Positions 801 through 5,955 of a DNA stretch of 60,339 nt are shown one piece after another (position 1 is the first letter of the stretch; each line of letters starts with the position of its first letter). A program made the position numbers and the translations under genes. This DNA comes from Candidatus Melainabacteria bacterium (GTDB lineage Bacteria; Cyanobacteriota; Vampirovibrionia; Obscuribacterales; Obscuribacteraceae), in contig RXJR01000007.1 in the NCBI GenBank assembly GCA_003963305.1, positions 1-60,339 on the forward strand. The letters are read 5' to 3'. The notes under the pieces were generated by a model that saw nothing but the letters and a program-made list of their open reading frames with translations, searched no databases and had not been told where the DNA came from.

Positions 801-1769
801 ACGACACCTCTTTCAAAACACCGGCTGAATGCCGGAATAGCTGCGCATGCCGCTCCCTCGCAAAGCAGCATTGGGCATCATGGGTGATACCGTGCGCAGG
901 TTGGCATAAGAATTCACTGTGCTAACGTCTACGAAGCCGAATCTGACCCAGTCCAAGAATCAGAGGCAGCTATCGATACGGCTCACAAGTGACAGGCGAA
1001 GTAGTCTTCAACGCCTTTGAACAACTCCAGGAACCTCGTCGACCAGCACCTTCATCGCACAGACAGCGATGCAGGCAAGAAAAGAATCGATGGAAGATGC
1101 TGGTGGTGGGCTGTTGAGAAGAAACTGGAGAAGGTGAAGAGAGGAAGACTATGAGAGCCTATGGCAACACCTCACCGGTAAGCAAGCTAACCAAACTAAC
1201 TTCCGCCTAATTTGAGGGCTGAAGGCAGCAGCACAGAGCGCACCGCACCGGAGCTCGAACACTTGAATACATGTCAATTTCGGGCTAGTTTTGTGGATAC
1301 TCTTGACTGCTCCCCTGGTTGCAAAGCGGCACCGTTGAGCCATTTAAATGATGTAGCGCAACTTGCACACTGGCGCTAGGTTTGATTAAGAAATTCCGCT
1401 GATGTCAACAGGGCGACCAGTCCAGGGACCATAAACAGGCGCAGGCACAATCTGAGCAGCTCCCCTATATCCCAGACTCCTCACCTATCAAGCTCTGGCA
1501 GACCAGAGCGTTTACTTGTTTATCGATGCATACTTCTGCTAGGTAAAAGTAGCCTTTTTATTTTTCCGTTCTAACCCGAACACCACCCACACGTAGATAA
1601 CAGCACGAGTAACAGTCGTCTCCTGCGCACATCAGTGCACAAGACTGCTGTTGCCAGAACAGATCCGGCAGAGCTGGAACCTGTTAAGGTCGCTCGACGC
1701 CCACCTCAGTGGTCTTCGAACGACCTGTAAACACCGCTGCTAATGCGTATCTTCAGAAACGAGGGACCC
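801..1769. other. Intergenic stretch without a convincing gene
   Basis: Nearly 1 kb between the divergent M17_N-like gene and the first Nudix gene. Short ORFs here lack a ribosome site and recognisable sequence. It must contain the promoters for both flanking genes, but I cannot place them with confidence. No tRNA-like cloverleaf was seen. Confidence 0.6.
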
Positions 1770-2438
1770 ATGGAGATATTCACCTTGCGCACCATATGTG
1801 GTGTGCTGATTTTGGCTGTCATCCTGCTGTTGCTCCTGGCACGGCGACGCGGATGGCAGGTTTTCGGGCAGCAGCGTGGCAGGGAGACGCCGCCGCCGGC
1901 TCACTTCCACAATGTTCGCTGGTGCCCGATTTGCCGTGGCAGACTGCGTCAGGCGCAGATCTGCGGAAGACTGAGACTGGCATGCACTCGACGCGGTTGC
2001 CGCTACGTACACTGGGACAGCCCCAAACCCGTGGTTGTTTGCGTCGTTGAAATCAATGGCAAAATCGTCCTCGTGCGTCGCGCAATCGAACCCGCCACCG
2101 GACAGTGGTGCATTCCCGGCGGCTACATGGAAGCTGGCGAGACGGGCGAAGAGGCAGCGGCGCGCGAGTGTTTCGAAGAGACCGGGCTGAAAGTCAAAAT
2201 CGTCAGCCTGATTGGCGCCTACGCCCCCTGTCACGACGTCAATGAAATCATTCTGGTTTACAAGGCTGCCGTGGTCGGAGGTTCGATTAAGCCTGGTGAT
2301 GAAGAGAGCGAAGTAGGCGTATTCAGCCAGGGCGAACTGCCTGCCGATATCGCTTTCGACCAGCATCGCAAAATCATCGCCCATTGTTTCGACAACACGG
2401 TGATCAAACCAGCCGAGCTCGACTGCTGCAGCCCATAG
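1770..2438 (+). CDS. Membrane-anchored zinc-ribbon Nudix hydrolase
   Basis: Nudix pyrophosphohydrolases cleave nucleoside diphosphates linked to another moiety. A perfect Nudix box GX5EX7REUXEEXGU is present (GYMEAGE, seven residues, RECFEETGL). It is preceded by a four-cysteine zinc ribbon (CPIC ... CTRRGC) and the motif YVHWDSPKPV, as in NudC/YjhB-like enzymes. Unlike its paralogue at 50.4 kb it carries an N-terminal membrane span (about residues 7-25, ILAVILLLLLA followed by RRR), which would leave the enzyme domain in the cytoplasm. The ATG at 1770 is chosen over the in-frame ATG at 1743 because GAGGGA lies 4 bases upstream; length 222 residues. The substrate cannot be read from sequence. 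Confidence 0.9.
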   Translation: MEIFTLRTICGVLILAVILLLLLARRRGWQVFGQQRGRETPPPAHFHNVRWCPICRGRLRQAQICGRLRLACTRRGCRYVHWDSPKPVVVCVVEINGKIVLVRRAIEPATGQWCIPGGYMEAGETGEEAAARECFEETGLKVKIVSLIGAYAPCHDVNEIILVYKAAVVGGSIKPGDEESEVGVFSQGELPADIAFDQHRKIIAHCFDNTVIKPAELDCCSP

Positions 2439-2682: not shown

Positions 2683-3528
2683 CTAGATCGAAGTAAGCAC
2701 GGCATGGAAAAGCTTGTCCAGACGCAATGACGCTTGCTTGGAAGCCTCCAACACCTCTTCGTGTCCACCCATCGCCTCACCCTCTTTCCAGACATTGGTG
2801 ACCACAGATATGGCCGCCGCTACGGTGCCTGTTCCCGCCGCTGTGAGCAGTTCCGGCACAGTCGACATACCAACGGCGTCGGCATTCAGTCGTCGCAGCA
2901 TCTCTATCTCAGCCATAGTCTCATATGAAGGACCCAGACAGGCGGCGTAAGTACCTTGCTGCAACGGCACAAACGACTGATCGGCGCCACTGAGCTTTTT
3001 GCCGATTTCGATAACCTTGTCTGTAAGCGCATTGGCGCAAGCAACTGGATCTTTCATAAGCGCCGACACAAGACCCTTTTCCTTGTGTTCAGGATTGAGA
3101 AAATCGCGATAGCCAGTCAGCACCATCAAGTCGCCAACGTTGAACGATTTGTTCAACCCACCAGCCGCGTTTGTCAGAAACAGCTTGGGAACGCCCCATT
3201 CAACAAGTACTCGCGCCGGCAGTGTGACAACAGACCAGTCGTGACCTTCATAGAGGTGGAATCGTCCACGGAGAACCGCTACCAGAGGACCATCAGGAGC
3301 CTCGACCAACCGCCCGACGACAATCGATCCTGCGTGTCCGGCGATTGTCGGCGCGATGCCGAAGACCTCTTCAAAGGGCAAAGCAACTGGATCATGCAGA
3401 TCCATCAACACTTTGACACCAGAACCAAGCACAACCGCGGCATCCGGCACACGCTTGCATGCAGCCTTTAAAATGCCAACGGAACTACTCGCTGATTTTG
3501 CTTCGATATTCCAGGATTCAGTCTTCAT
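2683..3528 (-). CDS. punA: Purine nucleoside phosphorylase (trimeric class) lacking the DHIN loop
   Basis: Catalyses phosphorolysis of purine (deoxy)nucleosides to free base and (deoxy)ribose-1-phosphate. All hallmark residues of the trimeric PNP family are visible in 281 residues: GSG (35-37) and GHAG (64-67) for phosphate, GRFHLYEGH (88-96), TNAAGG (119-124), GPSYET..AE (189-197), VGMSTVPE (209-216) and the base-binding Asn in VTN (233-235). The usual DHIN-L-G-NPL-GPN...RFP segment is missing and replaced by TGYRDFLNPEHKEKG (about 138-152). In known PNP trimers this loop contributes to the neighbouring active site. The upstream gene encodes exactly this missing loop. Ribosome site TAGGAG precedes the ATG. 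Last gene of a deoB-PNP-like-punA operon, 9 bases after its neighbour. Confidence 0.92.
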   Translation of the reverse strand: MKTESWNIEAKSASSSVGILKAACKRVPDAAVVLGSGVKVLMDLHDPVALPFEEVFGIAPTIAGHAGSIVVGRLVEAPDGPLVAVLRGRFHLYEGHDWSVVTLPARVLVEWGVPKLFLTNAAGGLNKSFNVGDLMVLTGYRDFLNPEHKEKGLVSALMKDPVACANALTDKVIEIGKKLSGADQSFVPLQQGTYAACLGPSYETMAEIEMLRRLNADAVGMSTVPELLTAAGTGTVAAAISVVTNVWKEGEAMGGHEEVLEASKQASLRLDKLFHAVLTSI

Positions 3529-3537
3529 CAGAAACTC

Positions 3538-4059
3538 CTAATTGATCAACGACTTGATTTCATTCATCAGGGCCCCGTCCAGCGGCAACCTGGAAGGCAC
3601 GACAATACCGATCACTTTCCACCCTGAATGAGCGGCAACAATCATCGTTTGAGCGAGATTATAGGAAAAGAATTCGGCTCCCAGACTCTTCAACTTAGCA
3701 GTCTCAGCCGCATCCGGCACCACACCTTGCTTGAGCCCGCCCAGCACACCGCGCTGAATCGCCGGTAGAATCTTGCCAGGCATTTCCTCGACCAGGTAAA
3801 TATCATTGACGACTGGAAACCGTTCACCACAGGCATCATTAGGACCCAATAGTGGATTGGAACCAGTCAAATTGATATGGTCAGACACCAGATGCGGTGC
3901 CTCAGCTGTAAACCCGAAACCAGGGTCGATAACAACCGCGACCCTGGTGCCTTTGTGGTTGCGCACAGCGCTGGTCACTTCATCGGTAAAACGATCAAAC
4001 TGCTGAGCACCAACGACCTTACCCGTGAAATCTATTAGTTTTGCGCCTTTCAAATCCAC
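3538..4059 (-). CDS. Degenerate PNP-like protein retaining the DHIN loop
   Basis: A 173-residue protein that aligns with the C-terminal half of trimeric purine nucleoside phosphorylases. It keeps DHINLTGSNPLLGPND (60-75) and ERFP (79-82), all lost from the adjacent punA product. Its own catalytic positions are gone: the GTY..GPSYET region reads QGVVPDAAET, GADAVGMSTVPE reads GAEFFSYNLAQT, and the ITN asparagine is absent. Residues 1-57 hold a GTRVAVVIDPGFGF strand but no GSG, GRFH or NAAGG. So it cannot be an active PNP by itself. The tight operon position between deoB and punA suggests it works with PunA, perhaps as a hetero-oligomer partner supplying the loop in trans (inference). A decaying duplicate is the alternative, though the frame is intact. 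Confidence 0.8.
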   Translation of the reverse strand: MDLKGAKLIDFTGKVVGAQQFDRFTDEVTSAVRNHKGTRVAVVIDPGFGFTAEAPHLVSDHINLTGSNPLLGPNDACGERFPVVNDIYLVEEMPGKILPAIQRGVLGGLKQGVVPDAAETAKLKSLGAEFFSYNLAQTMIVAAHSGWKVIGIVVPSRLPLDGALMNEIKSLIN

Positions 4060-4101
4060 GTTAATCTCCTTATCCGAGGATAGTCTTTGCCGTCACCGCC
4101 A

Positions 4102-5373
4102 CTAAACCATCGCAGCGCGCGCGCTTGAAACAAATGAAACGCCCGGACCATCCCATTTTGTGCCGACCCAGTCAGCTACACTGGCAGCAACGTCGGTAAA
4201 ACCGTCACGAATGCCGACATTTAAATCAGACGCCGACTGGAAGCCTGGCGAATAAGCAAGCAGCGGCACAAACTCTCTGGTGTGGTCGGTGCCTGGTGCA
4301 GTCGGGTCGTTGCCATGGTCAGATGAAATAATCAGGAGGTCATCATTGGTCATTGATTTGAGAATTTTGCCCAGCCATTCGTCAATTTCGCTCAAGGCCG
4401 CGGCATAGCCCTTCGCATCTCGGCGATGACCGAAAAGCGAGTCAGTATCAACCAAGTTGGTGAAAACAAACTGCACATGCTCTGGTTTTTCTTTAGCAAG
4501 ACGAACCTTTTCGTAATCAACCTGATTTGTGATCGACTGCAGAGTCAGCTCAAGACCTTCCTGATTTGAACCGGTATGCTGCGCGTGCGTCAAACCCTGG
4601 CCTGTAAAAATGTCTTCGATCTTGCCGATACCGAACACGCCGATTCCTTTTGCCGACAGTGCATCAAGCAAAGTCGGAGACGGAGGTGGCACAGCATAGT
4701 CGTGACGGGCGCCACTCATGCGTTTCCAATTGCCAGGCGTGCCCGTAAACGGACGGGCAATGACTCGACCGACGCGGTGCTTGCCTTGCAACTGTCGGCG
4801 CGCTATTTCACACCACTTGTAGAGCGTTTCCAGAGGAACAGTACTTTCGTGCGTGGCAATCTGAAAAACGCTGTCGCCGCTTGTATAAACAATCGGAAAA
4901 CCAGTGCGCTGATGTTCTTCACCCAGTTCGTCTAATACTGCAGTTCCAGAGGCCGGCTTATTGCAGAGTACGCCCTTGCAGCCGGTCTCATCGATAAATC
5001 TCTGGATAACATCGTCTGGAAAACCCTGCGGATAATAGGGGAAGGCAATGTCGTTAACTACGCCCATCATCTCCCAGTGACCGGTTTGCGTATCTTTGCC
5101 GTTGCTGCACTCTTGCAGCTTGCCAAACATGCCGACACTCTTTTCGATCGCCTGCACGCCGGCAATCGGAGCGATATTTCCCAGACCCAGACGAGCCATA
5201 TTGGGCAGCTTCAAACCGCCTGTTTCGCGGGCAGTATTCGCTAGAGTGTTGCAATTATCGAGGTCGCCAAACTCTGCCGCATCAGGGGCGGCTCCAATTC
5301 CACATCCATCAATGACGACGACAAACGCCCGTCGAAGCCCATGTTCGTTTGTTTTTCCCGTCTGGCTGGCCAC
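4102..5373 (-). CDS. deoB: Phosphopentomutase
   Basis: Interconverts (deoxy)ribose-1-phosphate and (deoxy)ribose-5-phosphate, linking nucleoside phosphorolysis to central metabolism. Alkaline-phosphatase-superfamily metal sites are clear: VVVIDGCGIG near the N-terminus, DTQTGHWEMMG with the phosphorylatable Thr region, TSGDSVFQIATHE, NLVDTDSLFGHRRD and ISSDHGNDP...TDHTREFVPLL. The frame stays open up to 5538, but the family usually begins just before VVVIDG. The GTG at 5373, with GAGGGGG five bases upstream, is the best start and gives 423 residues, close to the family norm of about 400. First gene of the salvage operon; 42 bases separate it from the PNP-like gene. Confidence 0.95.
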   Translation of the reverse strand: MASQTGKTNEHGLRRAFVVVIDGCGIGAAPDAAEFGDLDNCNTLANTARETGGLKLPNMARLGLGNIAPIAGVQAIEKSVGMFGKLQECSNGKDTQTGHWEMMGVVNDIAFPYYPQGFPDDVIQRFIDETGCKGVLCNKPASGTAVLDELGEEHQRTGFPIVYTSGDSVFQIATHESTVPLETLYKWCEIARRQLQGKHRVGRVIARPFTGTPGNWKRMSGARHDYAVPPPSPTLLDALSAKGIGVFGIGKIEDIFTGQGLTHAQHTGSNQEGLELTLQSITNQVDYEKVRLAKEKPEHVQFVFTNLVDTDSLFGHRRDAKGYAAALSEIDEWLGKILKSMTNDDLLIISSDHGNDPTAPGTDHTREFVPLLAYSPGFQSASDLNVGIRDGFTDVAASVADWVGTKWDGPGVSFVSSARAAMV

Positions 5374-5955
5374 AATTACCCCCTCGTAGCGAATCACATC
5401 TCCCAACCGTTGGAAGGCATTAAATCGCTTACTTCGCTGATTTGGATATTGTAGTTTCCGCGTCTCGATTTTCCCACTTCTTTGAAATCGTCGTCGTAGC
5501 GAGGCACGCGCTAGCTCGCGAACTTCAGATAGCGTCATATAGCGCCAGAAGCCTGATCCTGTTTACCTTTCAGCGTGACGAAAGAATGGAGGATGAGTGA
5601 GAGAAGGCAATTGTAAAGAGGTGAGATTTTTAGATCGAGCTTAAATTCCCCAATCTACGCATAGCCAGCCCTTGTGTTGTTTTTCGTCTTTTTGTTAGCG
5701 TCACACCGTACTTTCGTTTTTTCTGCCAAAACGCCTCCAACTTCCCGCCAAGCACATCTCTCCTTCAGCTTTTCCGATGCTTATTGCTCTCCATCACCGG
5801 AGTGCGATAAAGACCGGATTCAGGTGCAAAGCGGAATTTTGCGGCGTCAGGCGATCTCGCGCAGCCCGTTTCCATGGTGGAGACAGGCTCGTTTCACATC
5901 TAAAAGGGTGAGGCCGAACTGAGATTTCGCGCTAACCACCCACGAGGACACAGTT
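5374..5955. other. Intergenic stretch, divergent promoter region
   Basis: Holds the upstream regions of the deoB operon (minus) and the secreted protein at 5956 (plus). The frame open at 5374-5538 is the in-frame extension before the GTG start of deoB. An 82-codon plus-strand ORF at 5674-5922 shows no ribosome site or recognisable features. Confidence 0.5.

Follow-up and report, generated by a model that had tools for sequence, protein, structure and literature searches.

A putative purine nucleoside phosphorylase with its catalytic site and inter-subunit loop encoded by separate genes

PMC9916683 raises the question, still open, of why purine nucleoside phosphorylase (PNP) is obligately oligomeric when each subunit possesses an almost complete active site, and the locus described here poses it in a natural form. 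In calf PNP, loop 141–168 of one subunit lies on segments 87–91 and 196–205 of its neighbour and makes up most of the interface. Asn137 and Asn145 form bonds with Asn199 and Glu205 of that neighbour, and Phe159 alone enters the active site from another subunit (PMC9916683). A monomeric mutant of calf PNP is inactive (PMC9916683), which implies that a PNP devoid of the loop requires some substitute. On the other hand, the F159A mutation hardly alters the activity of human PNP (PMC9916683), so that Phe159 itself is perhaps not what matters. The window, i.e. the whole 60,339-nucleotide stretch of DNA that was analysed (contig RXJR01000007.1, from a Candidatus Melainabacteria bacterium), encodes side by side a PunA-type catalytic protein without this loop, called L below, and a small PNP paralogue, called S, in which the loop is present and the active site absent. 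Such a pair separates in nature what are normally two roles of a single interface, and the question becomes testable with or without a 19-kDa protein. Is the loop missing from L supplied in trans by S? No heteromeric or naturally split PNP of this kind was found in the open-access literature searched, from which subscription papers were excluded.

Organization of the locus

All elements of the locus lie on the minus strand. L (2683..3528) starts with ATG, encodes 281 amino acids and was defined by its sequence, profile matches and alignment. S (3538..4059) starts with GTG, encodes 173 amino acids and was characterized by sequence and structure comparison. The two genes are in the same frame, separated by the TAG stop of S and three codons, and the Shine–Dalgarno sequence of L (AGGAG, 3535..3539) overlaps this stop, an arrangement indicative of tight coupling. 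S has its own Shine–Dalgarno sequence (AAGGAG, 4066..4071), 6 nt upstream of its start. The phosphopentomutase gene deoB (4102..5538; PRK05362, E 5e-150) is found 42 bp upstream of S in the same direction, and deoB, S and L probably form one operon. Homology of the deoB product starts only at residue ~69 of the open reading frame (ORF), hence the true start is likely to be further in than the ORF start. A search for a sigma-70-like promoter near the S and L genes found none. On the plus strand, at window positions 1743–2438, a NUDIX hydrolase-like protein was noticed by eye only; its N-terminus carries a membrane segment, and a Cys-rich stretch resembles a zinc ribbon.

Complementary conservation in L and S

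Conservation was counted over 82 canonical PNPs, 52 L sequences and 50 S sequences, among which there are some near-duplicates, and is expressed in bovine numbering. L strongly matches PNP I (PRK08202, E 1.7e-58) and has the PNP fold (VIA Z 32.2 over 249 residues, to 4m1e), yet it scores under the curated NCBIfam cut-off of every PNP model (198.3 versus 218 bits for PRK08202; 183.5 versus 197.1 bits for TIGR01697), as is consistent with the absence of the loop segment. Residues S33, H64, R84, H86, Y88, Y200, E201, M219, S220, N243 and H257 are conserved at 98–100% in the 52 L sequences. Two stretches combine catalytic and receiving functions. RFHLYEG (L residues 89–95, 3244..3264; bovine 84–90) corresponds to the phosphate/ribose site and to acceptor segment 1, as judged from conservation, with an interface role according to PMC9916683; R84, H86 and Y88 are present in 100% of the L sequences and E89 in 92%. 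GPSYETMAE (L residues 199–207, 2908..2934) carries the catalytic Glu201 and, with Glu205, acceptor segment 2, these two residues being conserved at 98% and 100%, respectively. In contrast, when L is aligned to the canonical PNPs found in its class, residues 138–155 (3064..3117) are identified as a short replacement, TGYRDFLNPEHKEKGLVS, of the donor loop DHINL..NPL.GPN..RFP; position 137 is Asp (78%) or Asn (21%), position 159 is Leu, Ile or Val, and positions 146–148 are deleted. The original prediction, according to which PunA retains its catalytic and phosphate residues and lacks the DHIN...NPL-GPN...RFP segment, therefore held in the alignment (92–100% for each residue in L).

The genome has two further PF01048 genes. 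Named by sequence reading, they encode a methylthioadenosine (MTA) phosphorylase and a futalosine-hydrolase-like protein beside an mqnD-like gene, which leaves L as the sole PNP. Phosphorolysis by L, and its specificity for 6-oxopurine nucleosides as suggested by E201 and N243, are inferences from sequence.

S presents the opposite picture. It matches PNPs only weakly (PRK08202, E 2.4e-12, 47 bits versus a cut-off of 218; PDB 3la8, E 1.7e-12), over DHINLTG-NPLLGPN-..-GERFP and the part downstream of it. Its donor loop, DHINLTGSNPLLGPNDACGERFPVVNDIY, occupies residues 60–88 (3796..3882) and was delimited by invariant alignment columns: N63, P69, G72, F81 and Y88 of S are the counterparts of bovine N137, P146, G149, F159 and Y166. 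Among the 50 S sequences, Asn137, Phe159 and Tyr166 are conserved at 98, 100 and 98%, and at 94–100% when P146 and G149 are included; in canonical PNPs, Asn137, Phe159 and Tyr166 all reach 100%. Active-site residues are replaced or deleted (e.g. E201 by P in 80% and S220 by N in 86%), and the counterpart of GPSYETMAE is GLKQGVVPDAAE. That the neighbouring gene keeps the segment at residues 60–82 and has lost the catalytic residues was thus predicted with exact positions, except that the loop extends to Tyr88 (PNP Tyr166). Its description as a dead paralogue held in part: S is not a full-length protein but a shrunken whole PNP. The S model aligns with 3lba over 169 of its 173 residues (VIA Z 17.8), spanning PNP residues ~25–280, and predicts that S, ~95 residues shorter, has retained the PNP fold. 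A C-terminal PNP fragment, considered as an alternative, is ruled out by this coverage of residues 25–280.

Two motifs are conserved specifically in S, namely YNLVPxMIxAAHA (residues ~128–145, window 3625–3680) and GLKxG (~108–112), where PNP has its catalytic motifs GMSTVPE and GPxYET; they may bind a ligand at a new site or serve in packing. S shares 78% amino acid identity with its nearest relative at 69% nucleotide identity; dN/dS analysis of S and L gave no usable value, dS being saturated.

Taken position by position, the acceptor and catalytic residues R84, H86, Y88, Y200, E201, E205, S220, N243 and H257 are kept at 98–100% in L. S has lost them, apart from an acidic residue often aligned at 205. 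The inter-subunit loop 134–168 is missing from L in every sequence of the five families that possess it and is present in S. As far as sequence conservation of both half-interfaces goes, the giving and receiving faces sit on separate proteins. With the faces so divided, S and L should each be incapable of building the symmetric ring by themselves, although assembly itself is inferred.

Packing of the two proteins was addressed by AlphaFold2 (AF2) folding of the S–L read-through as a single tethered chain (63 aligned sequences, ten of them paired), which is not a multimer run. The model reached a pLDDT of 92.8 and a pTM of 0.90, with pLDDT below 50 only in the linker (173–184). Two rigid bodies of unknown mutual placement would be capped at a pTM of ~0.61, and a value of 0.90 needs S to be placed on L at ~3 Å expected error. 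Packing of S onto L is therefore predicted with confidence by the model, within the limits of a tethered chain, the docking face being inferred. S alone is predicted equally well (pLDDT 95.1, pTM 0.91, with the same confidence in the loop), and no signal was obtained for the idea that its loop becomes ordered on binding.

Distribution and origin of the split

Relatives with a truncated PunA and no partner would have refuted the original prediction, which suggested testing in related genomes whether both losses occur together. Profile searches (hand count from tables) detected S in 50 of the 51 genomes with a loop-less L, including genomes where the two genes are unlinked. Conversely, S is also absent from 14 of the 15 genomes of the same families that lack L, the fifteenth having an S fragment at a contig end. 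Co-occurrence is significant (Fisher p 3e-12), related genomes not being independent, and recurrence of the split in 50 genomes in all excludes a chance occurrence. The sole exception within the class is G047, an incomplete metagenome-assembled genome (MAG; 91%) with L and no detected S, from which a search with a divergent S profile did not recover S either; in the sister class considered below, G305 and G361 are further exceptions.

Within the class, five families (f1, f2, f4, f6 and f7) have loop-less L proteins. Family f1, which we take to be Obscuribacterales, has S at roughly 38–78% identity; in those pairs that were examined, S immediately precedes L. S is also found in f2. In one taxonomic order S adjoins L; in f4, f6 and f7 the genes are unlinked, and both are kept in 20 of 21 genomes. 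According to gene names assigned by sequence reading, S lies between rsfS and gpmI in f7, where it is devoid of the NDxxGER stretch, and beside rsfS or purQ in f6. In six of the seven f4 genomes, S makes up the N-terminal domain of an ArgJ protein, while in the seventh it is free-standing with 116 amino acids. Families f3, f5 and f8–f12 lack a separate S and have a single canonical PNP that contains the loop itself, and matches of the S profile there (rows listed) fall inside the canonical PNP ORF.

Several observations accompany this survey. The f4 fusions (L155:1471-3126, L152:1432-2922, L154, L157 and L158) match PF01960 with E values of 1e-102 and 6e-114 in the two tested, and the reason for an S-like domain on an arginine-biosynthesis enzyme is unexplained. 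In G020 (L078:1281-4601), two loop-less L copies surround one S. The record L180, labelled 'Synechococcales cyanobacterium', appears to match the f6 genome G042 (identical S length of 190 amino acids and identical score of 151.4 bits) and is probably a mislabelled MAG of this class. S-like proteins were searched for in viruses, with none found, and in plasmids, with PNP-like matches only; among the best 80 loci of a capped contig scan limited to one pattern, no split pair was seen in other phyla.

All loop-less L proteins form one clade in the tree, hence a single origin of the split within the class. With a single origin, the evidence from co-occurrence rests on retention and co-loss, and it is possible that the co-loss of S and L in f1 and f2 reflects one deletion.

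A related situation is found in a sister class of the same phylum, which we take to be perhaps Sericytochromatia. Its 14 genomes have two full-length PNPs, a and b, at separate loci (L254-L266 and L268-L277 in genomes G297-G319 and G361). Protein a has intact catalytic residues and a degenerate donor loop, e.g. DHLNLTGGFMLAPHLVPADRHVYD. Protein b has an intact loop, DHxNxTGxNPLIGPNDxxxGPRFPVMF, with Glu201 changed to Phe or Cys and Asn243 to Asp; its phosphate residues are kept, and for this reason b may possibly be an active enzyme of other base specificity rather than a dead one. Both occur in 11 of the 14 genomes, a only in two (G305 and G361) and b only in one (MAGs 86–95% complete). In trees calculated without the loop columns, L and a fall on one side of a branch (95*). 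S and b group at 100* when the loop columns, with their shared RFPV, are included, and their relationship is unresolved once these columns are removed; the AU test gave S+b and S+a equally good fits (0.79 and 0.80). Descent of S from b is consequently not claimed, its support vanishing without the loop columns and the AU test being unable to separate S+a. The a/b pair is likely to be an intermediate, the complementary state predating the class of the present genome and having gone further there. It would make the system a case of transition from homomer to heteromer with a visible intermediate.

A proposed heteromeric enzyme, its rivals and known systems

The losses are complementary, both half-interfaces are conserved, the genes co-occur and packing is predicted; together, this leads to the proposal that S and L probably constitute a single heteromeric phosphate-dependent PNP in which S provides L with the loop in trans. 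In the usual PNP trimer, the long loop of each subunit (~134–168, with Phe159) reaches reciprocally onto the catalytic helix and site of its neighbour, a point of the original prediction borne out by the calf PNP interface (PMC9916683). In the proposed enzyme, L would provide the receiving face and the chemistry only, and S the giving face only; S would clamp the RFHLYEG and GPSYETMAE segments of L and render L competent. Each L:S pair would be an open unit holding a single active site, not a closed ring. The ribose-1-phosphate product would pass to the phosphopentomutase encoded just upstream by deoB. The predicted hetero-oligomer is supported by the retained contact residues and by the pTM of the tethered model, whereas the complex itself, its docking face, its 1:1 stoichiometry and the inactivity of L without S are all inferred. 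A bolder reading, which we favour by a small margin, is that the heteromer is obligate, that a full-length a/b pair existed before the classes separated, and that the giver was then miniaturised, relocated and fused to ArgJ.

The main rival holds that L, its lost loop replaced by a tightened segment, is self-sufficient as a monomer or as some novel homo-oligomer, S having a separate role such as a co-transcribed ligand sensor or regulator. All catalytic residues are indeed present in L, and in Thermus thermophilus a monomeric PNP is reported to be active (cited in PMC9916683). The S–ArgJ fusion in f4 and the three MAGs with a catalytic partner, L or a, and no detected S or b (G047, G305 and G361) favour this rival and count against the heteromer; the loss of NDxxGER in f7 is likewise, with the fusion, unexpected for a tight L:S complex. 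The mild effect of F159A in human PNP and the absence of experimental support also weigh against the proposal. However, the invariant residues of S are those of the interface loop and not of a new pocket, the interface residue Glu205 is kept in 52 of 52 L sequences, the genes co-occur in 50 of 51 genomes even when unlinked, and the packing is predicted at a pTM of 0.90, so that a self-sufficient L appears unlikely.

Even less probable is a regulatory or chaperone-like S that tunes the stability, specificity or allostery of a partly active L without sharing an active site. Activation of trypanosomatid deoxyhypusine synthase (DHS) and S-adenosylmethionine decarboxylase (AdoMetDC) by dead paralogues (PMC3663545, PMC6221367) gives it a precedent, and the conserved motifs proper to S could bind a ligand; against it, what S has kept are the residues touching the neighbour's active-site segments in calf PNP, which points to direct completion of the site. 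Decay, with S as the pseudogene of a duplicated PNP and L itself degenerate, would account for the loss of the active site and ~95 residues from S, but is all but excluded by an S frame open in 50 genomes, by columns invariant across families, by the Shine–Dalgarno sequence of S and by an amino acid identity exceeding nucleotide identity.

Among known systems, trimeric PNP-I (human and calf PNP, PunA, XapA; TIGR01697/PRK08202) resembles the heteromer we prefer: L shares with it the fold and catalytic residues, S the fold and the donor loop, and the locus a deoB neighbour. These enzymes are homotrimers of complete identical subunits, whereas S and L have loop and site on different proteins and L should be unable to form a closed ring. 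In the hybrid oligomers of PfPNP (PMC7949152), which combine wild-type with M183L subunits, an active and a nearly inactive subunit are likewise associated with mutual effect, but they involve a drug-selected mutant of a hexameric PNP in an engineered fusion, with neither a division of loop and site nor a fixed gene pair. The trypanosomatid pairs DHSc/DHSp and AdoMetDC/prozyme are likewise enzymes completed or activated by a dead paralogue of the same family (PMC3663545, PMC6221367), with a 3000-fold activation in the case of DHS; they concern other enzymes in eukaryotes, whereas the S/L pair is bacterial and its paralogue miniaturised. As in prozyme-type systems, the partner is a paralogue minus its catalytic residues and both are conserved together (50/51); a physical complex is supported only by the packing of the tethered model (pTM 0.90), and strong activation by S would be an inference. 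Annotation pipelines are likely to label L as a normal PunA and S as a hypothetical protein. MTA phosphorylase, of the same superfamily and also encoded in this genome, has its own inter-subunit loop (CDQFVDRT...) and other specificity residues, both of which L lacks.
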